Assembly: GCF_025457605.1 (NCBI RefSeq)
Contig: NZ_JAMZFY010000001.1
Coordinates: 1 to 64,000, forward strand
Origin: Haloarcula laminariae
GTDB taxonomy: Archaea > Halobacteriota > Halobacteria > Halobacteriales > Haloarculaceae
Direction: 5' to 3'
DNA length: 64,000 nucleotides
Of this stretch, positions 13,250 through 62,340 are shown in pieces. Within the stretch, counting starts at the first letter, position 1, and the number at the start of each line of letters is the position of its first letter. Made by a program: the position numbers and the translations under genes. Below the pieces are notes generated by a model, which was given only the letters and a program-made list of their open reading frames with translations, did not search any database and was not told where the DNA came from.

Positions 13250-13273
13250 CTACATCCCACAGGAAACCCACCG

Positions 13274-22633: not shown

Positions 22634-22634
22634 G

Positions 22635-23408
22635 TTACGTTTCGGGGGCGTCGTTCCAGAGGTCTACGTGCAAGCGGGGCGTGTACCGGTAGCCGTACTC
22701 CATCGCGAGTTCAGCGACCTCATTCCGGCGGGCATCGAGTTCGTCTCGAGTCGTCCCCTCGGGCATCAGCAGCACGTCCGAATCCGGGATGCGACTCGCT
22801 GCCGTCGATCGGACGTCAGCGAGGAGGGATTCGATCTCGGGCAGGTCATCGGGGCCAGTGACGACAAACTTGAGTTGTGCGTTGTAGTCGTCGACGAGTG
22901 CGCCGAGTGCATCGAGGTCGATGCGCCGTTCTTCATGACGGTCTGCCCACTCGCCATCGCCCTTGGGGTCTTTCTCAGGGGTGGGTGTGCTGGAGGCGAG
23001 TTTCGGGCTGATGCTTGCCAGATCGATGGGGGCGTCACGGTGGATGGTACCGTTGGTTTCAACGGTAGTGTGGTAGCCGAGATCGTCGAGCTGCTCGAGG
23101 AGCGTGACCGCGTCATCGTGGATAAGCGGTTCACCACCAGTTAGGACGACGTGGTCGGCATCGTCGTGTGACTGGACTTCCTCGACGATGTCGTCGACGC
23201 TCATTGTGGCGTGGGTGGGCTCCCAGGAGGTGTGGTAGGAGTCACAGAACCAACACCGGAGATTACATCCGCTGGTGCGGACGAACACCGATGGCGTCCC
23301 GGTGAGCTTCCCTTCGCCCTGAAGCGAGTAGAAGAGCTCGTTGACCGGCAGTGCTGCGCCATCGACATCGTCTGCTGGCTGCTCATCAGCTGTTGAACTG
23401 ACTGGCAT
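22635..23408 (-). CDS. queE: QueE, 7-carboxy-7-deazaguanine synthase (radical SAM)
   Basis: A 257-residue radical SAM enzyme converting 6-carboxytetrahydropterin to 7-carboxy-7-deazaguanine. The cluster-binding cysteines C48, C52 and C55 lie in SGCNLRCWFCDS (C-x3-C-x2-C). The GEG motif at about residues 31-33 and the GGEP motif (VLTGGEPLI) are typical of the family. Its start overlaps the queD stop (ATGA at 23405-23408) and it ends one base before folE, so the four genes are translationally coupled. Confidence 0.93.
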   Translation of the reverse strand: MPVSSTADEQPADDVDGAALPVNELFYSLQGEGKLTGTPSVFVRTSGCNLRCWFCDSYHTSWEPTHATMSVDDIVEEVQSHDDADHVVLTGGEPLIHDDAVTLLEQLDDLGYHTTVETNGTIHRDAPIDLASISPKLASSTPTPEKDPKGDGEWADRHEERRIDLDALGALVDDYNAQLKFVVTGPDDLPEIESLLADVRSTAASRIPDSDVLLMPEGTTRDELDARRNEVAELAMEYGYRYTPRLHVDLWNDAPET

Positions 23409-25735: not shown

Positions 25736-28636
25736 GTGCGGTTCTACGTACCTGAGTGGGACGACGCAGTCGACTCCCACTACGATTTCAAACACGACGA
25801 ACTCTCTACCTTGAACCGTCAAGAGCGCGATCTGGACTATATCTGGGACATTTTCGAGCCCGAAACAACACCAGTAGACGGGGTTCTCATATCTCGCGAA
25901 CAGGTCGAAGAGACAAACCGCAAAGCCGAGCGACTAGCCCAGTACGGTGTCTACGATGACCCCGTACTTTCTATCCCGAATTGGTTACCGACGATTAGTG
26001 ACTGCGGGGCTTGGGGGTACAAGTCGCTCCCTTTCCCACCGTACGGGAACGAGGATATGCTCGACTTCTACGAGACGCTGGACGTTACTGTCGGCGTCAC
26101 TATCGACCACCTCGTTCTAGGGTCGGGAAAGGACAAGGGACGGCTCTATCTTGACGAACGCGCGTTCGACGGAGAACTCAACAAAGGCGACATCCCCGAC
26201 CCCATCACCGACGTCGTTGACGTCATGATTGAGGAATGGCCAGAGGAATGGCCCTCATATGTCGACGAGTACGAGCCGACGATTCGTACTGATCATACAG
26301 AAGTTGAACCGTTCATCGCTGAGGACTTTCGGGGAGACATTGATACCATTCTGTCCCGTCTCGAACAAGATTCACGTGCGGTCTATCGCGAACACGACGC
26401 CGAGTTCCGCTACGACTTGACGCTGCGGAACGCCCGAGAGATGTATGACCTCTACCAGCGTGGTGATTACCCGTTCCGACTGATGGTCGCCATCCAAGGA
26501 TGGAACCCTGAAACATACAGCAAGGCCGCTGAGGAAGTGCTTGGTATGGGTTACGACTACCTCGGCATCGGAGGAGTTGCAGGTAGCCCAGTTCACGACG
26601 TTCGTGGAATCGTCAAGAGCGTCGGGAAGACTATCAAACAGTTCGAACGAGAGCACGACAGCCGTATCGACTCCCACGTCTTCGGCTTCGCGAAGACTGA
26701 AGCATTCGAGACGATCGGCCGTTCAGGGATGACCAGCTTCGACAGCGCAAGTATGCTTCGCTCGGCGTGGACAGGTGGTCAGAATTATCGTCTTGACAAC
26801 GGCGAGCGCTATGATGCAATACGGATTCGCTACCCGTCGAGCCGAGACAACCTCAGCGAAGCTGTGGAGCAGTCCTTACGCGGTCGTGAAACACTGGTGG
26901 TGCTCCGAGCATACGATGCAGATGGTTCAATTTGTGATGCTCTTGAGAGCTGGTACGAGAGGGCTGAGAAGGTGCTGCCAGCGGCGAGAGAATACCTGCT
27001 GGTACACCGCCACGATGATCAGTATGACGAGTCACTCTTACAGGACATAGAAAGGGCGTTTCGAGAGGATTTCCAGTATGGACGCGAGCTTCAAGCGAGT
27101 TTCAGCGACAACCTCCGTAGTAAGTTGGTCAAACTTCTACGGAAAGACACCCCGGATGACCCAGTACCGTTCACGGAGTATGATGAACTGCTGACCAAGG
27201 CGATGAACGTGTTCGAGGCGTTCCCACACGCGAAGACCGTCTTGGACGAGTCCAATGTTGTCAGTGACTACGATCGTGTCTGGGAGGTTGTCAGAGATTA
27301 CGCTACTTGGATTGGTGATGACAATCTCCTCCAAGAGTACCAAGAGACCCTTCGAAACCGCCCTTGGGAGAAATGTGACTGTCCAATCTGTAGTGAGCAC
27401 GGTGTCGAGGTTTGTATCTTCCGCGGAAACGACCGGAATCGTCGGCGTGGTTTCCACAACACACGACGCTTCTACGACGAATTCAAGCGAGACCTTCCGA
27501 AAATTCTCGTCGCGACCCAGGGTGATGCTAGTTTCGGTGGCTACGAAACCGTAGAAGACTACCTGCGTGACAAACACTCCTCGTTCTGGACTCAGACACA
27601 TGACCTTCCGGTCGCAGAGATTGGTGTATTAGATGCGAACGGCGTGAGTGAGTGGTGGGAAGAAACCCCGTCGCTCGTCTCGTTCGCCCCAGATCGTATG
27701 GCAGCAAACATCGGCGAACAAGCAGCGAGGTACCAGCACCTCTTCGTACACACATTGGGTGGTGAACTTGACGAAGAAACCGTAGCGGCTGCTCGGGAAA
27801 ACGGTTGCGAGGTACACACCAATAGCAACCCTCGAGACTTGCGAGATGAAATACTCGAGGTCTGCGGGCAGAACTATGCAGCCAGTGACGACTTCGTGCC
27901 TCATCCACCTGAGATTGATACCGAGAACGGATTGGACATCCTTGTCATCGATCAGTGTTCAGGATCGAAGGAGATACCAGATGACGCGCCCATTTTCGGT
28001 GAAGAGGAAACTCTCCAGTTCTCTCGTGAAGACCTCCTCGCTCGTGATAATGTGCCAGGTATTGCGGCACGCGACCTGTACACGGGACGTCAGCAAAGCC
28101 ACGTCAAGAGTGCAGTTAGATGGCTTCTGCGGCAAGGTCACGACGTCGACCGTTACTTCGTGAGTGCAGGATTTGGCCTTGTCGCAGAAGACGAGTATCT
28201 TCCACCCTACGAGGTAACGTTCAGCTCAATGAACGTTAGCGACATAAGAGAGCGGTCTGCGAAACTCGACATCCAAAAAGACCTACGACACCTCCTTCAA
28301 GAGGCCGATTACGATGTCGTCTTCTTTACCCTTGGAAAGGACTATTACACCAGTATCGACATCGACGAGATGGTTCAGGAGGTACGTACCGACCGAATTG
28401 GTGTGGTCTTCAACCGCGAACTTGTCGAAGATCAATTTGACAATATCGAATCTATCCCCGCGCGGACAGAGGACGCAAAAGAACATGGCACGATCGTTGT
28501 TGGACTCAAGGGACACTATATGAAGAACTTCGCTCGATACATCGATACTGTCGATATTCTTCGCCCGGAAACTATCGAAGAACTATGTCGGCGAGTAGAG
28601 GAAGTACCACCACAAACGGAATTCGAGTCTGAGTGA
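25736..28636 (+). CDS. dpdA: DpdA-type DNA-guanine transglycosylase with C-terminal extension
   Basis: A 966-residue protein of the tRNA-guanine transglycosylase superfamily in its DpdA form. The N-terminus MRFYVPEWDD, the DCGAWGY motif (general acid/base D89, replacing DSGGF) and GVTIDHLVL are typical of DpdA. TSFDSASMLRSAW carries the likely nucleophile D336. The zinc site is C547, C549, C552 and H574. DpdA exchanges guanine in DNA for preQ0. The last 240 residues form an extra domain with a C-x3-K start (C741, K745), an ARDLYTG motif and SAGFGLVAEDEYLPPY, resembling the DUF6884/YaaA-like group. The start is the GTG at 25736; an AT-rich TTTATA box is about 45 bases upstream. Confidence 0.88.
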   Translation: MRFYVPEWDDAVDSHYDFKHDELSTLNRQERDLDYIWDIFEPETTPVDGVLISREQVEETNRKAERLAQYGVYDDPVLSIPNWLPTISDCGAWGYKSLPFPPYGNEDMLDFYETLDVTVGVTIDHLVLGSGKDKGRLYLDERAFDGELNKGDIPDPITDVVDVMIEEWPEEWPSYVDEYEPTIRTDHTEVEPFIAEDFRGDIDTILSRLEQDSRAVYREHDAEFRYDLTLRNAREMYDLYQRGDYPFRLMVAIQGWNPETYSKAAEEVLGMGYDYLGIGGVAGSPVHDVRGIVKSVGKTIKQFEREHDSRIDSHVFGFAKTEAFETIGRSGMTSFDSASMLRSAWTGGQNYRLDNGERYDAIRIRYPSSRDNLSEAVEQSLRGRETLVVLRAYDADGSICDALESWYERAEKVLPAAREYLLVHRHDDQYDESLLQDIERAFREDFQYGRELQASFSDNLRSKLVKLLRKDTPDDPVPFTEYDELLTKAMNVFEAFPHAKTVLDESNVVSDYDRVWEVVRDYATWIGDDNLLQEYQETLRNRPWEKCDCPICSEHGVEVCIFRGNDRNRRRGFHNTRRFYDEFKRDLPKILVATQGDASFGGYETVEDYLRDKHSSFWTQTHDLPVAEIGVLDANGVSEWWEETPSLVSFAPDRMAANIGEQAARYQHLFVHTLGGELDEETVAAARENGCEVHTNSNPRDLRDEILEVCGQNYAASDDFVPHPPEIDTENGLDILVIDQCSGSKEIPDDAPIFGEEETLQFSREDLLARDNVPGIAARDLYTGRQQSHVKSAVRWLLRQGHDVDRYFVSAGFGLVAEDEYLPPYEVTFSSMNVSDIRERSAKLDIQKDLRHLLQEADYDVVFFTLGKDYYTSIDIDEMVQEVRTDRIGVVFNRELVEDQFDNIESIPARTEDAKEHGTIVVGLKGHYMKNFARYIDTVDILRPETIEELCRRVEEVPPQTEFESE

Positions 28637-28776: not shown

Positions 28777-29811
28777 ATGTTGTATCGACGCAGGAAACTC
28801 GACCTCCCCCGAGGGGAATTAGACACCCCTGTTCTTTTCCCCGTTAGAAACATCGGGAAGCGGTCGAGTGACAATACACCGACGTACGTCGGCACGATCC
28901 CAGAGTTCTCGGCAGCGATGATCAACGCGAGATCAATTCGTAACCGAGACCCAATGTGGCAGAGAATATCGAATGGTGTAACATTACGAGAGGAAATGGA
29001 CGTCCCGGAGGACACCATCGTTTTCGCGGACAGTGGTGGGTTCGATTTCGCCAACGAAGAAGTGGACACTACCCCAGCAAAAACGCTTGATACCCAGAGA
29101 CAATTGGACGCGGACATCCTCGGCACAGTCGACATTCCTCTCTCAAGGGAGAATCGGGCAGCAGAAAATCAACGGCGAATCGACCAAAGCATCGAGTACG
29201 CACTCAAAGCGAGCGACCATCACGATGGGAAGGGCCTTCTCTTCGCGAGTGTCCATGGTTACGATCCAGAGACGATCCGGAATAACATACAATACCTGGA
29301 GAAGAACGGTGAATTCGATGGGTTTGCTCTCGGAAGTATGGTTCCAATACGAACCGATTATAAAAAAGTAACAAAACTGATACTATCTGCACGAAACGCG
29401 ACAGACAAGCACCTGCACGTGTATGGTCTCGGAGGTCTCGTCTATCAACCACTGCTGCTCTACTTGGGGGTCGACAGTTTCGACTCTTCGGCCTTCATTC
29501 GTAGTGCAGGCAACCGGAACTACTTGATTCCGGGATTCGGAGGGGAAGAACTACGGAATATCGAGGAATTAGACAGGCTCCCCTGTCCCTGCCCGGTGTG
29601 TGGACAAAAAGAGCTCGACGAGATTCGCGAAGATCGAACTGCCCTGACCCAGCATAATCTCTGGGCACTTGCGACCGAGCTGCGACGCTTCCGTTATGTC
29701 GCCGAATCTGATCGAGATGTTGAGGAGTACCTCGACTTGCGCTTCAGCGGGAACAAGGTCACTAAGCGGGCATACGAAACCGCGAAGCAACAGATGAGGA
29801 GGCTCACATGA
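28777..29811 (+). CDS. Second, short TGT/DpdA-like transglycosylase
   Basis: A 344-residue transglycosylase closer to classical TGT motifs. ADSGGF carries D85, GVDSFDSSAF carries the nucleophile candidate D236, and the zinc site is C270, C272, C275 and H293. It lacks the N-terminal DpdA signature and any PUA domain, the usual tRNA-binding part of archaeal TGT, so DNA is a likelier substrate than tRNA. GGAGG lies only one base before the ATG, too close to be a normal ribosome site. It overlaps the next gene by four bases. Two transglycosylases in one island suggest either a heteromeric enzyme or two specificities. Confidence 0.82.
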   Translation: MLYRRRKLDLPRGELDTPVLFPVRNIGKRSSDNTPTYVGTIPEFSAAMINARSIRNRDPMWQRISNGVTLREEMDVPEDTIVFADSGGFDFANEEVDTTPAKTLDTQRQLDADILGTVDIPLSRENRAAENQRRIDQSIEYALKASDHHDGKGLLFASVHGYDPETIRNNIQYLEKNGEFDGFALGSMVPIRTDYKKVTKLILSARNATDKHLHVYGLGGLVYQPLLLYLGVDSFDSSAFIRSAGNRNYLIPGFGGEELRNIEELDRLPCPCPVCGQKELDEIREDRTALTQHNLWALATELRRFRYVAESDRDVEEYLDLRFSGNKVTKRAYETAKQQMRRLT

Positions 29812-30704
29812 GTAATGAGAGACCAACTGTAAGGCCAATCACTCTCAGCCGGATGGCTGAACTGACTCATGCCTGTGAAGCAGTTAGCAAGTCAACTGAA
29901 GATCTTGAGGATGAATTGGAGGTAAGTCACCGCCGTGCGCGTGAAACAATTCTCGAAGCAAAGCGCATCTCCTTGCTCGAAGAAGATGACTCTGACGAGG
30001 CACCAGTCTACACGACGACTGATGTCGGTTTGTCGTTCCTTAATGCAATTCGCGACGAGGACTGGAGTCAAGTGAGCACAATCCTAGAGACACGTAGTCC
30101 CCACTACGGGACCTTCATTGAGGTTCTTGGAGAGGTCGAAAACGCTGGTTTAGACACACTTCTGGCCCAATTGGAAGAGGCACAGGAATTCAGCCCCTAT
30201 TCGTATAACCAAACGAGTGTGGAGGTGCTGGGTGACTGGGCTGAGCGGCTGGGTCGGGTTCAACGAAACGCGTTCACGGGAGACTACTACTTGACAGATC
30301 AGGCGGCAATACCCGCTAACTTCCACTACCTGCTTTTGGACGTGTACGACGACCTCGAAGATAGAGCGGGTATCGATCTGCGCCAGCGCTACTTGTCGAT
30401 TCCACGTCTTCGTGAGGAGACCTGTGAACGACTCGGCTGCACTCGTGATGATTTCAACGATGCGCTGCTCGGGCTTTGCCAGCAGAACGTCGGTAAACTT
30501 GAGCTGTCGGGCGCACCGATGGATACGGCTGCAAAGGATGCTGCACTCGGCATCAAGCGCATTGTGCTTTCCGAAGAGGGTGGTTTAGTTAGCACGTCTC
30601 AGTCCACTCAACAGGTCATGGCGGGTGTCGAACAGTTTGGTAAGAAATACTACTACCTCGCGGTACACGACCGCGATATCGAATACACACAGGAGGCTAC
30701 ATAA
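29808..30704 (+). CDS. Uncharacterised HTH-containing protein coupled to transglycosylase
   Basis: A 298-residue acidic protein I cannot assign. Residues about 15-75 look like a winged helix (HACEAVSKSTEDLEDELEVSHRRARETILEAKR), and the rest is helical without catalytic motifs. It begins in the ATGA overlap with the transglycosylase stop and its TAA shares a base with the next ATG (30704), so three genes form one translational unit. A DNA-binding adaptor for the transglycosylase and ATPase is a reasonable guess. Confidence 0.65.
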   Translation: MSNERPTVRPITLSRMAELTHACEAVSKSTEDLEDELEVSHRRARETILEAKRISLLEEDDSDEAPVYTTTDVGLSFLNAIRDEDWSQVSTILETRSPHYGTFIEVLGEVENAGLDTLLAQLEEAQEFSPYSYNQTSVEVLGDWAERLGRVQRNAFTGDYYLTDQAAIPANFHYLLLDVYDDLEDRAGIDLRQRYLSIPRLREETCERLGCTRDDFNDALLGLCQQNVGKLELSGAPMDTAAKDAALGIKRIVLSEEGGLVSTSQSTQQVMAGVEQFGKKYYYLAVHDRDIEYTQEAT

Positions 30705-31861
30705 TGTCCGACGCATTCACGATCACCGACGAGCAGCAAGACTACTCACAGTACGACTTGGACGCGAATCCCTTCCCGTACAGTCCGGTACCCACTGAAG
30801 ATCCCGGGATATACTGTGGCCAGCAGCACGTCTCGGACAAGATCAGCTCGACGGTTTCGTCGATGTTGTCTACTGGGAAGTCGAAGCATCTGGTGGTCAC
30901 CGGAAAGTATGGGAATGGGAAGTCTCACACGCTCAAATACACGCGCTCGCTCCTCCGCGACCGCGATGATGTCATCGTAGGATACGTTGCCCAGCCTGGT
31001 GACGGATTCCTCGACATCTACCACGAGTTCGTCTACGATCTGGGCTTCAACCGACTCCAAGAGTTCGCGTACGAGTTCCTTGCATCTGTGGCGAGAGATG
31101 TCACCGACACAAACCCGATCGGTGCCAGTGGGATGGAATCACTGATTGACGAAGGCGATGTGCTGCTCTCGGAAATTGTCCCCGAGGCGATTCGCCGCCT
31201 CAGCGATGTGACGAAGTTCGCCGACTTTGCACGTGCCATTATCCACATGGTGTACGAGGACACGAATCTCTATGCGTGGCAGTGGCTCACCGCAGAGGGA
31301 ATTCGATACGAGCAGCGCAAGGAGATGGAAATTCACAGCGCACTCGACGATGATACGATGGGTGTTCGGGCCTTCACCGCACTCAAAAATATGCTCCTCG
31401 AACTCGGCTATACCGGTATTTTCGTCTTCGTCGACGAGTTCGAGAGCATCGCACGCCTCTCACCCAAGGACGAACAGGCAACACTCAACAGCATTCGGCA
31501 CCTGATGGATCAGAACAGTTCGGGACTATGCATGCTGTTTGGTTGCGCTCCCGAGGTCTGGCAAGACGTGATGAGTGAATACCATGCGTTTAGCGAGCGG
31601 ATCGGGGAAGAAGTTGCTCTGAAACCGCTCACTAGTGAGAACCTCTATGAGTTGGTGCGTGATTATTTAGATCAAGAGAGGCTGTCTTCTGCTGAAAATG
31701 AGGGGATAGATCCCTTTTCTGAGGAGGCGTTGGATTTGATTCTCCAAACATCACAGGGCAATATCCGGCAGGTCCTATCTATGTGTAGCCGCATCCTCGA
31801 TGATGCTGCAGAATCCCAGGAAAATAAAATTACAGCTGCTTGGGTCGAGGACAATATCTGA
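30704..31861 (+). CDS. AAA/ORC-like P-loop ATPase coupled to DpdA genes
   Basis: A 385-residue ATPase. Walker A GKYGNGKS is at about residues 67-74, and Walker B IFVFVDEFES is near 240-247. A sensor-like CMLFGCAPEVW segment and a C-terminal winged-helix-like lid follow. The layout resembles the BrxC/D and ORC/Cdc6-like ATPases found in defence systems. In Salmonella the transglycosylase DpdA works with DpdB, which has an ATPase domain, so this protein may be a functional counterpart. That is inference; no DpdB-type DGQHR region is visible. Confidence 0.75.
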   Translation: MSDAFTITDEQQDYSQYDLDANPFPYSPVPTEDPGIYCGQQHVSDKISSTVSSMLSTGKSKHLVVTGKYGNGKSHTLKYTRSLLRDRDDVIVGYVAQPGDGFLDIYHEFVYDLGFNRLQEFAYEFLASVARDVTDTNPIGASGMESLIDEGDVLLSEIVPEAIRRLSDVTKFADFARAIIHMVYEDTNLYAWQWLTAEGIRYEQRKEMEIHSALDDDTMGVRAFTALKNMLLELGYTGIFVFVDEFESIARLSPKDEQATLNSIRHLMDQNSSGLCMLFGCAPEVWQDVMSEYHAFSERIGEEVALKPLTSENLYELVRDYLDQERLSSAENEGIDPFSEEALDLILQTSQGNIRQVLSMCSRILDDAAESQENKITAAWVEDNI

Positions 31862-41305: not shown

Positions 41306-42169
41306 ATGAGCTCCCGCAAATCTCAAAAATTCGGGAATTATTCGCCGCCCAAAGAAGATAGCCGTCGTCCACTAACCCGACAAGACACAATTAAGCTCTA
41401 TCAGACCGCCCGTGAGTGGCCGGACATCGAAACTGAGCTTGCTATACGAGTACTCTTAGACTACGGTCTCCGAATTGGTGAACTTGTTCACCTCCGAAGC
41501 GACTGGGTACGAAAAGAGTATCATAATGGGAAGGATGAGGAGTTTTGGTTGATTCAGATTCCGAAGTTCGAGCGTTGCTATGGTGGAAAAGGAGAGAAGG
41601 CTACTCAACAAGGTAATCAAGACGGTCTGGATCTTCATCGCACCTCAAGACCGTGTACAAGGTGCAAGGATCGGAGTTATAAACGGAAAGTAGCGCCAAA
41701 AATCAACGGTGAGCGACGGCCAGACCATGGATGGTTAACCGAGGAACAAGCAAAAGAGTATGATTTTCACCCAAAGTCCGCTCGTAGCGCGGATAAAGTC
41801 TGGCAATTGGGTGAGCTACCGGAAACAGCGGAAACAGCCCGTAAACTCAAAAAATTCGTCTCGGGACAGAAATATGAGCAATGGCCTCATCAGTCTAATT
41901 CTGCTCGGACTCGTCTCAATAAAGTCGTTGAGGAAGCAGATTTAACTCTTCCCGAGCGTCCGTCAGATACCGGAGTTGTCCCACATGCATTACGGCATAC
42001 CTATGGGTGCCGCCTTGTCGAGGCACGCGTCGGGGAAGGCATAGGGATGAAGCAAATGCGTCATCAGAACGCGGATGTTTTCGAGTGGTACGCACAGGTC
42101 AGAGGCGTACGGACATTTAATGCACTGAGTAACGCTGTTGATAGTTCTGCTAGTCTTCTACATGAATAA
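41306..42169 (+). CDS. Tyrosine recombinase / integrase
   Basis: A 287-residue site-specific recombinase of the phage-integrase family. The catalytic set is visible: R56 in LDYGLRIGEL, H227-x2-R230 in HALRHTYG, H253 in MRHQNA and Y262 in EWYAQV. The central part contains Cys/His residues (HRTSRPCTRCKD) that may bind zinc, as in other haloarchaeal integrases. It lacks a typical N-terminal core-binding SAM-like domain of full length. Its last eight bases overlap the next gene, so the two are coupled. Confidence 0.85.
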   Translation: MSSRKSQKFGNYSPPKEDSRRPLTRQDTIKLYQTAREWPDIETELAIRVLLDYGLRIGELVHLRSDWVRKEYHNGKDEEFWLIQIPKFERCYGGKGEKATQQGNQDGLDLHRTSRPCTRCKDRSYKRKVAPKINGERRPDHGWLTEEQAKEYDFHPKSARSADKVWQLGELPETAETARKLKKFVSGQKYEQWPHQSNSARTRLNKVVEEADLTLPERPSDTGVVPHALRHTYGCRLVEARVGEGIGMKQMRHQNADVFEWYAQVRGVRTFNALSNAVDSSASLLHE

Positions 42170-43124
42170 CCGTCGAAGCCGACCGCTAACGATTCCGCAA
42201 TGGAAGTCGCTTAGAGAAACAGCACAGGAATCTGGCGGATTTGTGCAACGACTCGTTGCAGATGTTGTTCCATTTACAGCACTAAAACGAAATCAGCTTG
42301 CACATCTCAGAGATAATTGGATACAGTGGCAGGCAGATGGTTTGAAGATAACTATCCCAGGCACTGCAGACTGTAACACCTGGAGATCAGAAGGGGGAGA
42401 TGGATTGGGACCGCTTACTCGTAGAGAACGCCCTTGCCAATCCTGCCGCATTTATGGACGAACCAATAGGTTCGAATCAACCTTCCCGGGCAAGGATCAC
42501 CAAGGTCCATTCCCACGAAGTATTATTCTGCAAAATGAGTTAGCAGAGCCTGCTATAGAACAATTACGGCAGATATTCAGAGTCCGTGATCGACCGGAGG
42601 TTGCAATCTCTCCTGGAACAGTTTCTATGGCGATCCACCGATTGAATGAGTCGGCCCCCTTCGAGAGACGATTTACAAATCGGTCACTGATGCAGACACA
42701 GGTAGTTATCCATGCAGAGTATGATCTTGATTTTGACGCGCTCTGTGATCTTTCGCCGTATACCGAGATCGGAATTAGAAAAATCCTCAGTAAGGCCCCG
42801 GGTGTCACTCATGACATTATGCGTTTTGATGTATCATCACTAGACTTTCTCGAGATTGTAGATAACCAAGCTCCAGTTTCGGCTGCTGAGCTTAGTTCTA
42901 TACTTGACGCGGACCAAGAGAATACCAAGGGACGACTACAGAATATGGCAGAAAGGGATCGCGTTGAGGTTGTTGGAAGAGAAGGACCCCATCTATCAGA
43001 CCAACTTTGGGATGTTACTTCTCCACCTCGAGAGAACTTCTATTGCCGGCAAGAGGATTGCGAATACCAGACACACTCACTAAATGGTATTCGACAGCAT
43101 GAAAGTATGACACATAATATTTGA
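42162..43124 (+). CDS. Integrase-associated protein with C2H2 finger
   Basis: A 320-residue protein starting at ATG 42162 inside the end of the integrase gene. The first 200 residues mirror the integrase layout, including a Cys pair in RRERPCQSCRIYG, but the catalytic R, HxxR and Tyr are not evident, so it looks like a degenerate paralogue. A winged-helix-like segment (about 235-285) and a C-terminal C2H2 finger (FYCRQEDCEYQTHSLNGIRQH...H) follow. It probably binds DNA and assists or regulates recombination. Confidence 0.65.
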   Translation: MNNRRSRPLTIPQWKSLRETAQESGGFVQRLVADVVPFTALKRNQLAHLRDNWIQWQADGLKITIPGTADCNTWRSEGGDGLGPLTRRERPCQSCRIYGRTNRFESTFPGKDHQGPFPRSIILQNELAEPAIEQLRQIFRVRDRPEVAISPGTVSMAIHRLNESAPFERRFTNRSLMQTQVVIHAEYDLDFDALCDLSPYTEIGIRKILSKAPGVTHDIMRFDVSSLDFLEIVDNQAPVSAAELSSILDADQENTKGRLQNMAERDRVEVVGREGPHLSDQLWDVTSPPRENFYCRQEDCEYQTHSLNGIRQHESMTHNI

Positions 43125-43751: not shown

Positions 43752-44111
43752 TTAGAGGTCTAAGATATCTTTGAGGTCTTTATCAGTTAAGCCAGCTTCA
43801 ACAACAGCTGGATAGTAATCTCGGTTCTTCTCTAAACCCTCCCCATACTGTCGTTTGTGCTGTGCATTGAGCTCGTCAAAACGGATATCGAGTTCTTGTC
43901 GTATCTCTTCAGGAAGATACATCAGAACACTGGGTCGGTCTTTGACCGCCCCCTCTGAACGTCCCGACATGGGATCACCGGAATCCTCAGTCACATCTGT
44001 CTTAGATGGAGTAGACCGGCTCTTGTCTGGCGTCTCGTCCTCTGCTGGGCCGTCCTCAAACCGTTCTCTGAGACGATCGGCTCGTTCCTCTCGTTCGTCT
44101 TGGTTTGTCAT
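43752..44111 (-). CDS. ParA-coupled small protein, putative ParB-like partner
   Basis: A 119-residue protein. The first 65 residues are charged and disordered, and the C-terminal half (VLMYLPEEIRQELDIRFDELNAQHKRQYGEGLEKNRDYYPAVVEAGL) resembles a ribbon-helix-helix or compact helical DNA-binding region. Its ATG overlaps the ParA stop (44108-44111). A small gene in this position next to ParA commonly encodes the centromere-binding partner, and I infer that role here. Confidence 0.6.
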   Translation of the reverse strand: MTNQDEREERADRLRERFEDGPAEDETPDKSRSTPSKTDVTEDSGDPMSGRSEGAVKDRPSVLMYLPEEIRQELDIRFDELNAQHKRQYGEGLEKNRDYYPAVVEAGLTDKDLKDILDL

Positions 44112-44875
44112 GCTATCTCCTCCAGATGCGTAGCAATCTCAGCGAATTCTGCTTCCATGTCGGAGTCCTCTTCGTGTGCAAAGATGGAGACACCGTTGTT
44201 CCATGCTCGTTTGAGAGCAACACGCTTTCGAACCTCCCAAACGGGGAGTTGGCCACCAAATGTGTCGTCGAACCAGTCCATCATCTCCGTGGCTTCTCCA
44301 TCGTGTTCTACGCGATTTGCGACAATCCCCAGTTCGTTGATCTGGGTATCGTATCCTTGCTCGATCGATTCGATTTGGTCATACAGAATCTCCAAAGCAC
44401 GAATGGAAGTTCCTTCTGCGAGAGCAGGAATCAGCACATTTTGGCAGGCTAAGAGAGCGTTATCAGTAAGATGGCCCAGCGATGGTGGACAGTCCACGAT
44501 AATGAAGTCATAGCCGTAATCGAGATTATCAAAGAGTAGTTGAAGCCGTTCCCGAGACCGCATGGCTCCGGTTAGATCTGTTTCGAGAGTAAACATATCC
44601 ACATTTGCTGGGACAACATCGAATTCATCTTGAGAGTACACGATGTCGGATATGGCTGGAACTTCATCTATTGTTGCGAGAGCACTACCGAGGTGTGGTT
44701 CTGAGGACTCGTATACGTCTGCTAGTCCGAGTCCTTCTGTTGCATGTCCCTGCGGATCTAAATCGACAAGCAGGACATCTTGACCTCGATTTGCAAGGGC
44801 ACCAGCGACGTTTATCGCAGTCGTTGTTTTTCCTACACCGCCCTTTTGATTGCTCACTGCTATCTTAGACGACAT
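44108..44875 (-). CDS. ParA-family partition ATPase
   Basis: A 255-residue deviant Walker ATPase. KGGVGKTT (about residues 9-16), the DLDPQGHAT motif and VDCPPSLG are the standard ParA/Soj signatures. The ATG at 44873-44875 is preferred over an upstream start because it places the P-loop at the usual distance. It segregates plasmids or chromosomes with a partner, likely the overlapping 119-residue gene. Three 18-bp iterons overlap its start and upstream region and probably bind the partner or give autoregulation. Confidence 0.93.
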   Translation of the reverse strand: MSSKIAVSNQKGGVGKTTTAINVAGALANRGQDVLLVDLDPQGHATEGLGLADVYESSEPHLGSALATIDEVPAISDIVYSQDEFDVVPANVDMFTLETDLTGAMRSRERLQLLFDNLDYGYDFIIVDCPPSLGHLTDNALLACQNVLIPALAEGTSIRALEILYDQIESIEQGYDTQINELGIVANRVEHDGEATEMMDWFDDTFGGQLPVWEVRKRVALKRAWNNGVSIFAHEEDSDMEAEFAEIATHLEEIA

Positions 44876-44916
44876 TATTGTCTTAGATAGATATTCTGTC
44901 TTAGACAACTTAATTC
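44863..44916. repeat. Three 18-bp iterons at parA start
   Basis: TCTTAGA recurs at 44863, 44881 and 44899, exactly 18 bases apart, each followed by a partly conserved 11-base tail. The first unit is inside the parA coding start and the others are upstream. Such iterons are typical of partition operators or centromeres. Confidence 0.65.
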
Positions 44917-54073: not shown

Positions 54074-54336
54074 TGCCGGGCACGCAGTTTACCGTCGACG
54101 CCACTGGTGGCGACGGGTTCTATGTCACCGTTGCAGAGGAGGTGACGGTCTACGAGTCATATAGCGACGCTGTCGCAGAGATTCAAAAGAAGGTCTCGGG
54201 CGAGACTGAGAGTTTCCTCGCCGAAGTTGCCATCGAGGCCAACGGCGGCGACGATGTCGCACTGACGCTGGAGCAGGTCGGCTGGCAGCAAGTCATCCAA
54301 GACATGGCCGACACCACTGGAGGCGAGGACGCATGA
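54073..54336 (+). CDS. Small hypothetical protein in ParB-like operon
   Basis: An 87-residue acidic protein with an N-terminal beta-rich part (TQFTVDATGGDGFYVTVAEEVTVYES) and a helical C-terminus. It overlaps its neighbours on both sides (one base upstream, ATGA downstream at 54333-54336). The family is unknown; coupling implies that it works with the ParB-like proteins. Confidence 0.65.
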   Translation: MPGTQFTVDATGGDGFYVTVAEEVTVYESYSDAVAEIQKKVSGETESFLAEVAIEANGGDDVALTLEQVGWQQVIQDMADTTGGEDA

Positions 54337-55562
54337 TCGAGCGACGGGACCTACCTGTCGACTCGCTGGTCCTCGATGCGGTCCAGTCTCGCGACGAAGC
54401 GTGGACCGGCGACGAGGACGACCGCAAGCTCGCTGATTCCATCGCCGCAGATGGTGTCCTGCAGGATATCATCGTTCGGCCGTTGGAGGCAGTTGAGCTT
54501 GCTGACGAGCAGGGTAGTGATACTGACGAGGCGACGTATGCGATCGTTGCCGGGTCGCGACGGTATCACGCAGCGATGGAAGCCGGCTACGAGACGGTGC
54601 CGTGCAAAGTCGTCAATGCCGACGATCTGGATGCAGCGTGGACGTCGCTTGTCGAAAACACCGACCGGAAAGAGCTGTCCGAACAGGAAATCGCCAATCA
54701 GCTCAAACTGATCTACGAGTTGGTCCGGCCCCGAGAGGAACCCGAGTCGTGTCCGGCCTGTGGCGTCGACATGGCTGGGGAGTCGGAGCTGTTGGCCCAC
54801 TGTGCGGCGACCGCATGTACGCTCCCCGGGAGTCCAAGTGATGGGCCGCCTGTGCGGAGCTCATCGGATGGAACACAGGTGCGGCGGTTCTGCACCGACC
54901 AGCAAGCCCTGAAGTACGTTTCTCAACGGTTCCTCGGCCGGGACGATGATAGTGCCGTGTCGATCGTTGAAGGCCACCTCCGGACCGCAGAGCTACCGCC
55001 AGTTTTGCAGTCGCTGTTCAAAGTGCCTGAGGACCGCACGGAACAAGAGCGGATGGCGCTGGAGAACTACGGTGTCGATGTCCAGACGACTCTCGGCAGT
55101 GGGGAAGGCAAGTCAGGCACCTCCAGAGAAATCGTCGCCCTGTACGAGGCCGTCGACGAAGAAGCCGAGACGGCAGCTATTGACCCGACCGACGCAGTCC
55201 TCGAGACCGTCGGCTCACTCCGGTTCGATGAGATGTCCGAGCAAGAGCTGCGGCGGACGCTTCGTGATTTCCGGCACAGCGTTACCGCTCAGTTAGAGGA
55301 CGATGTGTCGCCGGACGATCAGCGCGAAGCGTTCAGGGAGACACTGCAGAACTGTGCTGCGGCGCTCAGAGAGACGTACGAGGAAGTCGAACCGACGCGG
55401 CCGTTCAAAAAAGTCGATGTGCTGGGGCCGGATACCCAGCAACACAGTCGATGGCACGCTCGCGTGATGCAACAACGAGACGTGAACGGACATGGGGAAT
55501 TAGTCCGGGAGCTATATCAAGAGCGGCTGGAAACACTGGCGGAGACTGAGGGGTGGGAGTAG
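54333..55562 (+). CDS. ParB/Spo0J-like protein with zinc-finger insert
   Basis: A 409-residue protein. The ParB N-terminal domain is visible in SIAADGVLQDIIVRPL, then YAIVAGSRRYHAAMEAGYETVPCKVV, which contains the GxRR box, and in LVENTDRKELSEQEIANQL. An insert carries CPACGVDMAGESELLAHCAATAC, a likely zinc finger. Helical DNA-binding and dimerisation parts follow. It probably binds a centromere or origin. The ten-copy repeat array at 57875 is the obvious candidate target. Confidence 0.85.
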   Translation: MIERRDLPVDSLVLDAVQSRDEAWTGDEDDRKLADSIAADGVLQDIIVRPLEAVELADEQGSDTDEATYAIVAGSRRYHAAMEAGYETVPCKVVNADDLDAAWTSLVENTDRKELSEQEIANQLKLIYELVRPREEPESCPACGVDMAGESELLAHCAATACTLPGSPSDGPPVRSSSDGTQVRRFCTDQQALKYVSQRFLGRDDDSAVSIVEGHLRTAELPPVLQSLFKVPEDRTEQERMALENYGVDVQTTLGSGEGKSGTSREIVALYEAVDEEAETAAIDPTDAVLETVGSLRFDEMSEQELRRTLRDFRHSVTAQLEDDVSPDDQREAFRETLQNCAAALRETYEEVEPTRPFKKVDVLGPDTQQHSRWHARVMQQRDVNGHGELVRELYQERLETLAETEGWE

Positions 55563-55564
55563 CG

Positions 55565-56497
55565 ATGGCGTCGGACGCTGACCGTGAGTCGATTCCCGAA
55601 GCGAAGCTCCCGTCGGAGTACGACGCCCTCGTGGGTGTTGATTCGCTGGTTCATGGAACACACAACCCTCGGCGGGTGACGCCTTCTGAGGAGCTTCGAG
55701 AGTCGATAGCTGAGGTGGGGATGAGTAAACCCCTGATTGTGCGGCCAGATGGGACAGAGGACGTCTATCACATCACGGATGGCTGGCAGCGATACCAGGC
55801 CGCCACGGAGTGCGGCTGGGAACAGCTGCCGGTCCGGATCTATAAGACCGCATTAGATGCGTTGGCGGCGACGGAGACGGCAAGTATCGTCCGGGAGTGG
55901 TCGACCTATGAGTGGGCCCAGTACTGCCAATCCGTTGCGGCTGAACTAGAGGCAGCATCAACCCAGGAACTGGCCGAGATGGTGGCTGATCGGACGGTGA
56001 AGTCACCGCGAACGGTGCGGCGGTATTTCGACGTGTTATCGCTGCCAGAGGACATTCACCCGCTGCTGGTTGATGGGCCGGCCGGCACGAGTCAACAGTG
56101 GACGGCACTCAAGCACCACAATAGCGAGGTCCGGCGCTACGATGGGTTGAGCTGGACCGTGGCTGGGTATCTGGCACGGCGACAGGCCTCACTCAGTCAG
56201 GACCGAGTGACCGGGATTGCTGCGATGGCGGTGGAGTTCGACCACAGTGACGATGCTATGGAGTTTGTCGACCGGGCTGTCGAAGCAGTGGAGACACCGT
56301 TAGAGACGGTGCGAAAGGAAATCCTGTTTGGCCAGCAGCATCCGCGCTATTTGGAAATCCCACGGGTTGCTGTAGCACTTGATCGGGACGAGAAGCAGGC
56401 TGTGATGGAGTACTGCTATCAGCACCGACGCTCATTGACTGATGTCGTGACCGAGACAATACGGTCGTTAGCGACGGACGTGTCTGAGGAGTCATAG
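55565..56497 (+). CDS. Second ParB-like protein
   Basis: A 310-residue protein beginning at ATG 55565, two bases after the first ParB-like gene. VDSLVHGTHNPRRVTPSEELRESIAEVGMSKPLIVRP and YHITDGWQRYQAATECGWEQLPVRIY match the ParB N-terminal domain with GWQR in place of the usual GxRR. A helix-turn-helix follows (STQELAEMVADRTVKSPRTVRRYFDVLSLP). Two different ParB-like proteins in tandem suggest recognition of two sites, or a heteromeric complex. Confidence 0.85.
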   Translation: MASDADRESIPEAKLPSEYDALVGVDSLVHGTHNPRRVTPSEELRESIAEVGMSKPLIVRPDGTEDVYHITDGWQRYQAATECGWEQLPVRIYKTALDALAATETASIVREWSTYEWAQYCQSVAAELEAASTQELAEMVADRTVKSPRTVRRYFDVLSLPEDIHPLLVDGPAGTSQQWTALKHHNSEVRRYDGLSWTVAGYLARRQASLSQDRVTGIAAMAVEFDHSDDAMEFVDRAVEAVETPLETVRKEILFGQQHPRYLEIPRVAVALDRDEKQAVMEYCYQHRRSLTDVVTETIRSLATDVSEES

Positions 56498-56991: not shown

Positions 56992-57393
56992 TTAGGTGCC
57001 TGGTTCCCGAACGGTAACTGTCTCGAGTTCCTTGGGGTCCCGGAGCTGTTCGATTTCTACCTCGCCGTTTGCTGGGGCGATGTGTTGGTACGCATCCGGG
57101 ATGTGTCGCGTGCCGGTGTATCCGACGGACCGAATCAGCAGTACTTCGCCGTCGGCCAGATACGCCGCCAGCGTCTCGAGGAACTGTTCGGTGACTTGTT
57201 CATCATTCGGGGTCCAGGCGTCGAACGTCGTTGCGGTACTGAACAGCGCTAGTTCTGTGCCATCCAGTTCGTACTGGCCGTCGAATCGGTAGCCAGTCTC
57301 TGGTGGGTCGCCGCCGAGTAACTCCTCGACCTCGTCGACGTGTTCGTCAGCGATCGCTACGATGTTCGAGCGGTACATAGCAGTGTAGTTCAT
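56992..57393 (-). CDS. Hypothetical acidic protein
   Basis: A 133-residue protein starting at ATG 57391-57393 (MNYTAMYRSNIVAIADEH...). It is acidic and globular, with alternating strands and helices and the segment FDAWTPNDEQVTEQFLETLAAYL. The open frame extends upstream to 57636, adding a Thr/Glu/Gly-rich disordered 81 residues; I consider the shorter form likelier. It is convergent with the ParB-like operon. No family is recognised. Confidence 0.6.
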   Translation of the reverse strand: MNYTAMYRSNIVAIADEHVDEVEELLGGDPPETGYRFDGQYELDGTELALFSTATTFDAWTPNDEQVTEQFLETLAAYLADGEVLLIRSVGYTGTRHIPDAYQHIAPANGEVEIEQLRDPKELETVTVREPGT

Positions 57394-57734
57394 CTGTCGC
57401 TCACTCCTCCGGCGCCATAGAAACCAGTCTCCCCTGCCCCCACCCTCGTTGCTGTGCGAACCGTCCGGTTGGTGCGTCGTCTTTGCGTCAGTGTCAGCTG
57501 CGTTGTTTTCTCGGTCGGTCGGTTGTGTTGTCCGCTCGTCAGTGTTGGGTGTCTCCTCCGGAGTTGTCCGTCCTGCGAGTCCACCTGTATTCTCACTCGT
57601 GTTTCTCCTCTCTAGGGTCCCCTTCTGTTGTATCAAGTTTCTGGTAGTCCCCTGTTTCCTGCCCCTGCCCTCTTCTCTTCGTTTCCCCCAGTTCTCTTTG
57701 GCTCCGCCTGTTCTGTTCGCTACGCGACTACCCC

Positions 57735-57853
57735 CGTGTGTAGGCTCCCCCCTTGGACCCTATTTATGTGAATTCGCGAGCCTACACACGACGGGATGAG
57801 TGTATAATTAGCGGCCCGCTAAAGACTTCTAAGGCCGTGAGAGCCTACACACG
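57735..57853. repeat. Three copies of a 13-mer GAGCCTACACACG
   Basis: The 13-mer occurs inverted at 57735-57747 and direct at 57778-57790 and 57841-57853. The first two form an inverted pair enclosing TATTTATG, a TATA-like box. They lie just left of the 42-bp repeat array and may be operator or origin elements. Confidence 0.55.
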
Positions 57854-57874
57854 AGAATTATCGGGGAGGGGTAT

Positions 57875-58487
57875 TTCATGAAGAACCCAGCAAATTCGAC
57901 TGCAGTCTTGTCATTAATAGAAATGACTGGTAGACAATATTATTCATGAAAGAGATACCGTATTCCGCTGCCGTCTTGTCATTATCACTGTCGAATCGGG
58001 CAAAATGGTGTTCATGAACCACCCCCCGAATCCGCTTGCCGTCTTGTCATTACGAATTTCATGAAAACTAGCCGCAAATGCGCCCCCGTGTTGTCATTAC
58101 GGGTTGAATCACACTGCCGATTAGTGCTCGTTTCCGAGTTCCAGCTGTCATGAAGACTCCCGACAAATCGGACGCCATCTTGTCATTACGAGTTTCATGA
58201 AAACTCTGGCCTAATCGACTGCATTACTGTCATTACGGAATATGAGGTTTCCTCACCTGCTGTCTGTTTTGGGCTCAATACTGTCATGAAGAGACCCCGA
58301 AAATCCGCTGTTGTAGTGTCATTACAGGTTTCATGAAACAGGGTCTGGATTCGGCTGCCGTCTTGTGATGAACGTATTCGGGGCAACGAATCACTGTTTC
58401 ATGAACTACACCGGCTATTTGACTGCCGTCGTGTCATTACAGATTTCACGAAAGATACCGACCATTGCTCTGCAGTCCTGTCATTAA
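57875..58487. repeat. Array of ten fixed-length 42-bp units, candidate centromere or origin
   Basis: Each unit starts with TTCATGAA (or one-base variants) and ends with GTCATTA exactly 35 bases later, usually preceded by CTGCCGTCTT. Unit starts are 57875, 57943, 58011, 58058, 58147, 58194, 58283, 58330, 58398 and 58445. All successive spacings are 47, 68 or 89, differing by 21. Between the outer motifs the units are only partly conserved. No ORF crosses the array. It lies between the ParB-like operon and the HerA/VirD4-like gene, so it may be a ParB-binding centromere or a replication origin. Confidence 0.85.
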
Positions 58488-58701
58488 TCGGCCCGAAAAC
58501 CAGTTTTGTATCGAGATTCTGAGACAAACGCTGGGAGTAGACTGAGATACGATTGAGAGTGGCCTTTGGTCACGCAAGGAGGCGAGGGGGTGAGACGCTA
58601 GTCTTCGGGGACCTAACGACTGGTATGGGAGCCACTGGCCAGTGCTGGTGTGACGCCAATGAGCCGAGTGCGTAGAAAATGGAGCCTCGCCGTCTGACTG
58701 C
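58488..58701. other. Gap between repeat array and ATPase gene
   Basis: About 210 bases without a gene. I see no further repeat units and no hairpin strong enough to call. Confidence 0.5.
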
Positions 58702-61700
58702 TTAGACGTCGTCCCGGAGGTTGTTGATGCTCAGGAGTTCGCTGGCTCCTGGCTCATCCAGTGCCTCACTCATGGTTTCGAAGTTTCCAGACCGCCTTGA
58801 CATATCTACTGACGTGTATCCACTGAGTGAGTTGAGGAGTTTTTCGGCGCCGTCGAGGTTTTCAACGACCCATACAGCGTCCCCTGTCGCGGTTGCGAGC
58901 GTTTCGTAGTCGTCTTCGACGTGGCTGCGTTTCTCGGGTGAGGTCTCGACTTCGACGAATTTGTCTATGTTATCGGGTGAATCAGGAGTTGCCTTGGCAT
59001 AGACGTCGTGAAGCGCATTCCAGTTCTCAGGGTTGTAGTACATCTCGACATCGTAGCCCTGTTGTTCATAGTAGGTAGCCACCAGTCGCACGCCGATCCG
59101 ATGGGTCAGGCTCTCGCCACCTTTCTCGCCGCCGCCAGCTGGTGAGAGGTCTCGGTCGACGAGTGTTTCTGCTTTTGTCGTGGGCTTGTAGTAGAGTTCG
59201 TTGTTCCCGAGTTTTGTCTTCTCGAGGAACCCTTCGTCCACGAGGAACGCGGCGGTGTCGCTGAAGGGAAGATCAGACATCGGACTGCCGAGCGTGTACC
59301 CATCGACCCCGTCAGTGAGTGCGTCGAAGACCAGATCCAGGAACGCTTTGTGTTCGTGCGTGATGCCGTCTGGACTGTTATCGTCGTCGAGGTCGTGGTC
59401 GGATGCAGAGTCGGACTCGTCGGTGTTGGATTGCCGTTCGTGGCTGGTCATCGTATCGACGGCGTCACTGTCACGGCCGACACACATCCGTGCGCGACTG
59501 CGGTCACGTACACTGTCGGCTCGGGCCGTAACGTTGAATGGGCCTTCGGAGTGGCCGGGTGGGATTGGGAGTGGCTTGAGAGTGAGGATTTCTGGCTTCT
59601 GTTTGTCGAACTCATAGGATGGGAGTTGCACCACCCATTCACCACGTTTGAGCCCTGCGATGCGGTCTTTGATTTCGTCACCGTCTAGGTCTTCGTGGAA
59701 GAGTGACTCTGCGAGGAGGTCGTCTGTTGCCACGTTCCCGATGATTTTCGTGTTGACGTTGTTCAGGATCTCTTTGTAGGCGCGGCGGTTCTGTCGTGGG
59801 TTCTCGCCCAGCACCTGCTCGGGATACTGCATGATGAGCCCCAGCGAGAGGTTGAACTCACGTCCTTTGGGGAGTAGTTCTTGATAGACGATTTCGTTGC
59901 GAGCGATGTTGGCTGACTCCTCGATGATCACGTTCGCGATGTAGTCGTCCCTGTCTGGCGTCCAGATGGACTGCACTGAGGTCCACAGATGAGACAGGAA
60001 CAGGACGGTGAATATCTCGCTGCTTTCGCCCCGGAGATTGCCCGTGTCGATCAGCAGGACCTTGTTGGAGTTCAGGATACTCTTGAGGTCCAGCATGGGG
60101 ATGTCTGCTTTGTCGTACCAGCCCGTGGAGTCGTCCCAGTGTTCCTCACCGACCTCGTAGGAGAGCATGTCCCAGATGAAGTCCCGCTCTTTCAGCTTTC
60201 GGATTCGGTTGAGGACGGCGTCGGTGGTGTTGGTGAACTGCCGTTCGTCTTTTTGCAGGTGGGAGATGAGGATGTCTCGGACCTGCGGGTCACTGGTTTT
60301 CGGGACAGCGTTGTCGATGATGTGGGACTGGTCGACGTCTGGGTCTTCTTCCTTGTTGGGGTCGTACTTCTTGCCCCACTTCTGGTACTCCTGAGCGGTC
60401 TGCATCAGTTTCCCGATCGAGAAGTAGTCCGAGCCGTACTCCTCGTCGAAGTTGGCTTTGATGAGATTCGTCAGCACTTCGTTGGCGACGAAGGCCTGAT
60501 CGACTGTTTCTCGCCCGAGGACAAACCTGAGGAGCTGGAAGTAGTGGTCGATGAGATCCTGTTTGGCGGTGGCACGTTCACGCCCGGCGCCCCTAACGAG
60601 TGGCCGGAGATCGAAGAAGGGGATACCTGGGACTTGCCCATCTTCTTCGGGGATTTTGATGTACTCGACGTCGTCGAGGTCACCGAAGAGTGTGCGGTGA
60701 CAGCGCAGATAGTTCTTGCACATTTCACCACCTTTGGGGTCGACGAGAACGGTGGGCCCATCGAGGAAGTGGTGGGTGGTGAGCATGTCGTTGATGGTGG
60801 CGACGGTCTTGCCGCTCCCGGTAGTCGCCCCTCTGATGTAGTGGTGAGTGAGGTCGTTGGCTGCCAGAGAGATAGCATCGCGCTGGTCGAGTTGTTGCCA
60901 CCAGTCGTTTTTGCTTTCGATAGCGCTGATGTTGTTTTGCCCCTGTCCTTGGTCACGGAGAGCGGTGACCGCTCGCCCGATGGTCATCCCCTTTGAGAAT
61001 TCGCGGAAGACCTGTTCGTTCGGGGAAGTCAGGGGTGATTGGGCAGCTGGTCGACCGCCAGACCCACCACGGCTGGCCTTGGGTAGTGAGTCGATCGAGG
61101 GGACAGTGATGAAGTTAGCGAGCTCTTTGGCGTTGGTGACGAGTATGGGCTTGCGCCGAGTGACAGATTCCCAGCCGTTGGGATAGGTCAGCCCGTGGTT
61201 GAGCATCCGCTTGAATTCGTACTCGTTTTGGCCGAGGTGTTTGCCCTCGATGGAGTAGAATTGGCCACTGAGGTGATTGAGTGCATCTTGGAGATTTGTC
61301 GCGGTTGCTTCGTCACTAGCGGCAACTCTGATACTTGTATTGTACGTGTGAGAGGGGTTTTTCAGGTCGATCTGGCCCATGCGTCCGGTGCCCGAACGCT
61401 GGCCGCCGACCTGTGAGTCATGAATCGTGCCACCGATTTCGTGTGGGGTATCGCCCCGGTGACGCTGTTGTCGTTCTTCATCAGATGCCCCACCGAGTAA
61501 AGCGTCGATGATGGTCCGAATGAAGAGCCCGCCTTGTGAGTGGACGCCCTGTTTGAGGAGTCCTTTCTGGCGTTGGGCTTTTGCAGACCAATCCGATCGT
61601 GGTTCGAAGATGACCTGGAAGAGGACGGCACCATCGGACTGGATTGCGGTCTCGAGGAGGTTCGAGAGCGGTGAGCGTTCGATGTGTTCGGTGTCGAAGC

Positions 61701-62175
61701 GCGTCAGTGTCGTCATCCAGTCTTTCCGGCGTTCTTCACGCCCTTCGTACCGGACCATGTGGGGGACATCGTCGAACACTGAGGTGATATCGAACTCGGT
61801 CCGCTCGAAGTCGTAGTCTTCTGGATACTGTGAGCGCGTGGCACTTTCGAGTCGGTCACAGGTGATATCGCCCCGTTCACCGGGCCCGAAGAAGAACTTG
61901 AATTGTGCCCCACCTTCGGGTTTGTAGATGATGAATTCGAAGTTGGAGACTTCCTCTATCGCGTCGATATGGAGTTCAATATCGAGAGGGAGTTTGCGAC
62001 CTGAGCCGTATTGATGGAGTCCGTAGAGTTCGCGGGTGATGGTTTTGGAGTTGACTCCCCCTCGGACGGGCTTGACTCGGATGTACTCCTGTGAAGCATC
62101 GATTTCCTTGCCGTATTCTTCACCGGTTTGGTCGTCAGTGCCGGTTTCCCAATTTGATGATTCGTCACTTGCCAT
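58702..62175 (-). CDS. HerA/VirD4-like ATPase with nuclease-like C-terminus
   Basis: An 1157-residue protein beginning at ATG 62173-62175. The N-terminal 400 residues are of unknown fold. The ATPase core has Walker A RGATTGSGKT (about residue 450), TVLVDPKGGEMC and the Walker B-like strand ANVIIEESANIARNE, as in TraG/VirD4/HerA coupling ATPases. The C-terminal part holds a winged helix (about 960-1030) and a region with HDVYAKAT and DKFVEVETS, the D...ExE layout of PD-(D/E)XK-like nucleases. It probably moves DNA during conjugation or processes it. No membrane segment is evident. Confidence 0.8.
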   Translation of the reverse strand: MASDESSNWETGTDDQTGEEYGKEIDASQEYIRVKPVRGGVNSKTITRELYGLHQYGSGRKLPLDIELHIDAIEEVSNFEFIIYKPEGGAQFKFFFGPGERGDITCDRLESATRSQYPEDYDFERTEFDITSVFDDVPHMVRYEGREERRKDWMTTLTRFDTEHIERSPLSNLLETAIQSDGAVLFQVIFEPRSDWSAKAQRQKGLLKQGVHSQGGLFIRTIIDALLGGASDEERQQRHRGDTPHEIGGTIHDSQVGGQRSGTGRMGQIDLKNPSHTYNTSIRVAASDEATATNLQDALNHLSGQFYSIEGKHLGQNEYEFKRMLNHGLTYPNGWESVTRRKPILVTNAKELANFITVPSIDSLPKASRGGSGGRPAAQSPLTSPNEQVFREFSKGMTIGRAVTALRDQGQGQNNISAIESKNDWWQQLDQRDAISLAANDLTHHYIRGATTGSGKTVATINDMLTTHHFLDGPTVLVDPKGGEMCKNYLRCHRTLFGDLDDVEYIKIPEEDGQVPGIPFFDLRPLVRGAGRERATAKQDLIDHYFQLLRFVLGRETVDQAFVANEVLTNLIKANFDEEYGSDYFSIGKLMQTAQEYQKWGKKYDPNKEEDPDVDQSHIIDNAVPKTSDPQVRDILISHLQKDERQFTNTTDAVLNRIRKLKERDFIWDMLSYEVGEEHWDDSTGWYDKADIPMLDLKSILNSNKVLLIDTGNLRGESSEIFTVLFLSHLWTSVQSIWTPDRDDYIANVIIEESANIARNEIVYQELLPKGREFNLSLGLIMQYPEQVLGENPRQNRRAYKEILNNVNTKIIGNVATDDLLAESLFHEDLDGDEIKDRIAGLKRGEWVVQLPSYEFDKQKPEILTLKPLPIPPGHSEGPFNVTARADSVRDRSRARMCVGRDSDAVDTMTSHERQSNTDESDSASDHDLDDDNSPDGITHEHKAFLDLVFDALTDGVDGYTLGSPMSDLPFSDTAAFLVDEGFLEKTKLGNNELYYKPTTKAETLVDRDLSPAGGGEKGGESLTHRIGVRLVATYYEQQGYDVEMYYNPENWNALHDVYAKATPDSPDNIDKFVEVETSPEKRSHVEDDYETLATATGDAVWVVENLDGAEKLLNSLSGYTSVDMSRRSGNFETMSEALDEPGASELLSINNLRDDV

Positions 62176-62340
62176 ATGTATCGAATACCATATGCTATCG
62201 TTGTACAATAGCAGGGGTGTTGAGGAAACGATCGTATTGTGCATTTCGAGTTAGGCATACGGGTGTATTGATTACTAGAAGTTATAATCAGTGAGGTATT
62301 GCAAAATTTAATAAATTACTACCACCCATATAGTTTCACT

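Follow-up and report, generated by a model that had tools for sequence, protein, structure and literature searches.

The window analysed here comprises the first 64,000 nucleotides of contig NZ_JAMZFY010000001.1 of Haloarcula laminariae. An array of ten 43-bp units was found on its forward strand at 57874-58486 (unit ends at 57916, 57984, 58052, 58099, 58188, 58235, 58324, 58371, 58439, and 58486), where it was recovered by a repeat finder without prior knowledge of the site and checked by its box pairs. The array DNA is non-coding. Each unit runs from a left box (TTCATGAA) through a conserved middle (C-rich, AAT-C, GCCGTCT) to a right box (TGTCATTA). The distance from box to box is 35 bp in all ten units; the left box carries one change in three of them, and the right box is changed in one. 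Successive units are spaced 68, 68, 47, 89, 47, 89, 47, 68, and 47 bp apart, each value being 26 plus a multiple of 21. An initial annotation of this DNA had proposed the ten units, the 35-base motif distance and the 26 + n x 21 rule; the array was found independently at the same place, and the distance and the rule hold for all ten units and all nine spacings, respectively. Sites with up to two mismatches numbered 10 in the real sequence, whereas 100 shuffled sequences contained 0.01 on average and never more than 1. In its exact form, the box pair matches only 57874-58486 across the 3.69-Mb genome.

The array lies 215 bp past the stop codon of a reverse-strand gene (58702-62244) that encodes a HerA/TraD-like ATPase of 1180 aa, which is the relevant neighbour of the window array. 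The family assignment is based on weak TraD similarity; no Pfam match was obtained. Two forward-strand genes (54333-55562 and 55553-56497) encode ParB_N-domain proteins, the second with a C-terminus that looks RHH-like by eye. The initial annotation had drawn attention to these two ParB-like neighbours; the domains were confirmed, but a conserved partnership with the array was absent. No ParB-like genes were seen in related array loci, the second protein had no match in the plasmid collection, and both were rejected as partners since they are not conserved with the array. A gene for a ParA-family ATPase is located about 13 kb from the array (44108-44908, reverse strand). Upstream of it, a tyrosine-recombinase family gene (PF00589) and a possible relative adjoining it (41306-43124) are consistent with an integrated element. 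Its att sites were not found, and integration at tRNA-Cys was rejected, as no second copy of the 3' end of this gene was found within the window or the neighbouring 20-kb stretches examined. The contig carries ribosomal S11, which places the window copy of the array on the chromosome. The window also contains an island resembling a 7-deazaguanine DNA-modification (Dpd) system (3818-31861), with QueC/FolE/QueE-like genes recognized by eye (21333-23408), DpdA (25736-28636; E 2e-75), a TGT homolog (28777-29811), a BrxD-like ATPase (30704-31861), and two giant DruE/DpdJ-like helicases (7721-18727).

Related arrays share a strongly conserved left flank of about 165 bp, which contains CCACGCGACTAC, CCCTAATTGTGTGAATTCG, a pair of direct repeats, and a palindrome between the repeats. 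In the window it occupies about 57718-57857, beyond the coordinates of the initial annotation. The block CGCTACGCGACTACC (57718-57732, forward strand) is present in nearly all left flanks compared, and comparison of the flanks identified a second block, CCCTATTTATGTGAATTCG (57758-57776, forward strand), for which the family form is CCCTAATTGTGTGAATTCG. The direct repeat GAGCCTACACACGA (57778-57791, forward strand) varies in sequence between elements; its second copy (57841-57854, forward strand) follows 63 bp, or six helical turns, after the first, a distance of 62-63 bp being kept by all elements that have the anchor. The palindrome TTAGCGGCCCGCTAA lies at 57808-57822 and reads TTAGAGnnnCTCTAA in several relatives.

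The family comprises about 33 distinct arrays, which were read from plasmids and integrated elements of Halobacteria and usually have eight units. They follow one ruler of 68, 68-70, 47, X, 47, X, and 47 bp, where X is 79/80 in most arrays, 89/90 in the class of the window, and 68 in one genome; two loci (L097 and L061) depart slightly from it. A pattern search found arrays in 14 of 392 genomes, several of them lying apart from any HerA/TraD-like ATPase of the window type. The reversed control pattern had no match in the same genomes, which together with the shuffles excludes chance as the source of the array. A search with the conserved flank retrieved eight plasmid records (Halorubrum, Halobacterium, Haloarcula, Halopiger), all typed as non-mobilizable in PLSDB, a typing that may miss archaeal families. 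Array replicons are large and also carry ParA and Orc1/Cdc6, and pristine arrays are present in chromosomal elements as well. The left box and the right box are related to each other and lie in direct orientation; they vary between elements and are uniform within one (TCATGAA/TCATTA, TAAACAC/TAATTAC, GTATAC/GTATAC, and TATATAC/TATTTAC are examples), whereas the C-rich stretch, AAT(T/C)C, and GCCGTCT between them are common to the whole family. Contrary to the initial annotation, the interior is thus not simply degenerate. At L039, a degenerate array is directly followed by tandem repeats (L039:9693-9852; GGAATGGTCTATGGAACAGGGTCA) that are nearly perfect and about 24 bp long. No description of the array element was found in the open-access literature searched.

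At 10.5 bp per turn, the window array has 4.48, 6.48, or 8.48 turns from one unit to the next and 10.95 or 12.95 turns from a unit to the next but one. Half-integral spacings place neighbouring units on opposite sides of the helix and every second unit on the same side; the earlier suggestion that all sites face one side is therefore wrong. Across all arrays, adjacent spacings fall at half a turn, and the distinct next-but-one spacings are best fitted by 10.46 bp per turn with a phase near zero. With the four length classes alone, p = 0.007 was obtained for a common phase under a simple random model. The 21-bp step does not hold for the family, since an interval of 79/80 bp is common among relatives; the arrays are stepped by a single helical turn of about 10.5 bp. 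From element to element, the homologous interval X changes by one or two whole turns. This favours selection on helical phase over recent duplication, a conclusion that is supported, not proven. Lack of phasing in related elements, one half of what the initial annotation had named as speaking against its proposal, is contradicted by the conservation of phasing in about 33 arrays.

Orthologs of the window ATPase (66-69% identical) are encoded on other haloarchaeal replicons, and their 3' flanks carry arrays of the same architecture with different box sequences. Placement of the array directly after the ATPase gene is widespread, recurring in many elements that belong to several families; more distant ATPases (about 40% identical) had no comparable array. 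The C-terminus was modelled (pLDDT 85), and a fold search with the model pointed to a MarR-like winged helix (about aa 960-1032) and then a restriction-endonuclease-like domain; with Z values of 6-9, these assignments are at the fold level only. Divergence of the winged helix was correlated with divergence of the boxes after control for the ATPase core (r 0.40, p 0.0002, n 14; post hoc, the segment having been picked after a scan), while the similarly variable nuclease-like last segment gave r 0.01 under the same control. In the full set, only the winged helix and the preceding linker tracked the boxes after core control. The winged helix is a putative box reader, which the comparison supports without proving; as evidence that the translocase recognizes the repeats, the covariation is suggestive only.

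These observations bear on a possible role of the array in transfer, in which it would serve to load and orient the adjacent ATPase. In Streptomyces, clt repeats adjoin the translocase gene and are bound by the translocase (PMC3583192), and clt abuts traA in pWTY27 (PMC3583192). The cluster directly 3' of a translocase gene, in the window and in many relatives, and the modelled winged-helix end resemble clt/TRS with TraB/TraA (PMC3583192, PMC4170104). However, the units of the haloarchaeal array are much larger (43 bp) and phased, the array also exists without the ATPase, and TraB/TraA is FtsK-like while the ATPase here is HerA/TraD-like by weak similarity, with putative box recognition. The winged helix would read the boxes, a hexamer would assemble, and the plasmid would pass into another cell as double-stranded DNA, with mobilization in trans for array plasmids that lack the ATPase. 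The window genome, with the ATPase and a near-perfect array and neither of the other partner genes described below, fits such a role, as do the pristine arrays of chromosomal elements, the window copy included, and the post hoc tracking of the boxes by the winged helix and not by the nuclease-like segment. On the other hand, three array plasmids (54, 57, and 117 kb) lack the ATPase, p117 and CP089470 among them. The array is thus independent of the ATPase in cis, and the ATPase was rejected as sole, obligatory partner. Where co-resident arrays were compared, their box type often differed from that of the array beside the ATPase, and the Mantel signals are based on few, related sequences. We know of no report of transfer by array elements, which also counts against this role. 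We regard it as rather unlikely, though a close second among the readings considered. Less probable still is the specific version in which a HerA/TraD-like translocase reads the helically ruled array through its winged helix, loads, and moves whole double-stranded plasmids, the array "dialects" keeping element identities apart.

Besides the ATPase, two other genes are array-specific, one for an RHH-like protein and one for an adjacent protein without family assignment (AAP); none of the three is universal. The RHH-like protein (130-190 aa) has a ribbon-helix-helix-like N-terminus and is encoded to the left of the array. The assignment comes from a reading of its sequence, and no supporting Pfam or PDB match was found. 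Its gene was detected in 10 of 392 genomes, all 10 with an array; in three of them (G223, G302, and G334) the DNA pattern had missed the array, which was found only because the RHH-like protein predicted it. The AAP gene lies to the right of the array. All six records with AAP in the plasmid collection contain arrays, as do all 11 genomes with strong matches, and none of 13 weak matches had an array near it. The partners differ between plasmids: p117 carries only the RHH-like gene, CP089470 only AAP, and CP034942 both. Neither protein has a homolog in the window genome, where the ATPase is the sole array-specific partner. An ORF of 214 aa occupies the position of the RHH-like gene of relatives (56992-57636, reverse strand); no homolog was found, and it may not be real.

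The distances between AAP sequences are correlated with those between boxes (r 0.69, p 0.0002). The RHH-like protein (0.61) and the ATPase (0.74) also track the boxes when the comparison is confined to the 79/80 class, so that common descent may explain the correlation. A double dissociation, in which AAP went with the boxes and the RHH-like protein and ATPase with the flank repeats, vanished once each of the two array classes was analysed on its own. The structure model of AAP was unusable (pLDDT 42). At three loci (L095, L100, and L104), in-frame stops interrupt AAP next to arrays that are otherwise well kept, and at two others (L068 and L071) it appears frame-shifted. The pattern looks like frequent loss of the gene once an array is in place. 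One protein (L099:10476-11492, array orientation) combines two winged-helix-like segments with the C-terminal tail of AAP (PEWDDDIGGDHVGGGFRIDLDQDGEV); the tail may thus be a constant part on which the DNA-reading module can be exchanged.

The initial annotation had proposed an undescribed archaeal centromere or an iteron origin. In an origin or iteron-like copy-control region, an initiator would bind the phased units and open nearby DNA. The array is non-coding, has about 8 phased sites, is somewhat AT-richer than its surroundings, and occurs on replicons with Orc1/Cdc6, some within 3-9 kb of it. Characterized haloarchaeal origins, known from the same hosts and replicons, have inverted ORBs with G-strings directly beside orc1/cdc6 (PMC3528665); the sites of the array are direct, and this arrangement is not matched here. 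No Cdc6 family match was obtained in the window, the nearest on the contig being at 158 kb, and no Rep gene is associated with the array. GC skew marks arrays inconsistently and was discarded as an indicator of an origin. With direct sites and no orc1/cdc6 gene in the window, an Orc1/Cdc6 origin is unsupported, and we consider an origin of any kind improbable. Viral provenance was rejected (no ATPase relative in viral contigs and no flank match in phage records), as was a structured RNA (no Rfam match up to E 1). The three different partner genes flanking arrays and the integrase genes on some elements could also indicate a regulatory or recombination platform untied to partition or transfer: a large regulator might use the units as its operators, or an integrase as its accessory sites. 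Promoters, integrases, and att sites did not recur consistently around the arrays, and the ruler extends further than in the accessory sites known to us. This is the least likely of the readings considered.

The centromere half of the initial proposal still leads: tentatively, we read the region at about 57718-58490 as a centromere-like docking site for partition of a plasmid or integrated element. Partition is favoured because of the arrays on complete plasmids that lack the ATPase, the RHH-like gene beside many arrays, and the precedent of ParR/parC, where binding specificity sets plasmid incompatibility and diversifies between related plasmids (PMC9426499). A single ruler in about 33 divergent arrays, with lengths shifting by helical turns, speaks for it, as do boxes that are element-specific yet internally uniform, in analogy to ParR/parC, and replicons with ParA and Orc1/Cdc6, the RHH-like and AAP genes being array-linked. 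Against it, there is no universal partner gene, and ParA genes, common on these plasmids, do not adjoin the array. The window copy lies in the chromosome, a setting that does not require partition. Co-resident replicons can share a box type (3 of 9 pairs were among the closest 6% of distances), which weighs against strict centromere incompatibility.

Among known systems, type II ParR-parC sites (R1, pB171, pSK41, and C. perfringens pCW3) are similar in their direct-repeat arrays, linked RHH protein, and diversifying specificity (PMC9426499). They differ in having repeats of 10-20 bp, in contrast to 43-bp two-box units with a conserved middle, half-turn alternation, and an extra conserved flank. 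An RHH-like gene accompanies many related arrays but is absent from the window genome. Of the ParABS features, ParA is present on the replicon (44108-44908), and a cognate ParB travelling with the site was not seen. The archaeal AspA-ParBA system of Sulfolobus pNOB8 likewise pairs a DNA-binding protein with ParA; AspA can coat DNA as a left-handed helix, with ParB as adaptor to ParA (PMC5120986). Its site is a single 23-bp palindrome with spreading rather than a phased array, and the ParB genes of the window are not array-conserved.

In the partition mechanism we propose, each 43-bp unit would be bound at both boxes by a sequence-specific protein. Bound units alternating between two helix faces at fixed turns would form one ordered nucleoprotein coil, with the conserved left flank as a second binding module. 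The complex would mark the replicon as self and hand it to a motor, which may be ParA and/or the neighbouring HerA/TraD-like ATPase where present. The features of the array fit a self-recognition site of a mobile replicon.

To our knowledge, partition and transfer of haloarchaeal low-copy plasmids and megaplasmids are largely unknown. The array is probably an undescribed docking site for inheriting or transferring such plasmids. It offers a precise cis element with conserved geometry, interchangeable specificities, and three candidate partners, which makes binding, stability, incompatibility, and transfer directly testable. The whole-turn changes in length are a natural experiment on DNA phasing in an archaeon. 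If a translocase does read the array, this would be a previously unknown archaeal system.
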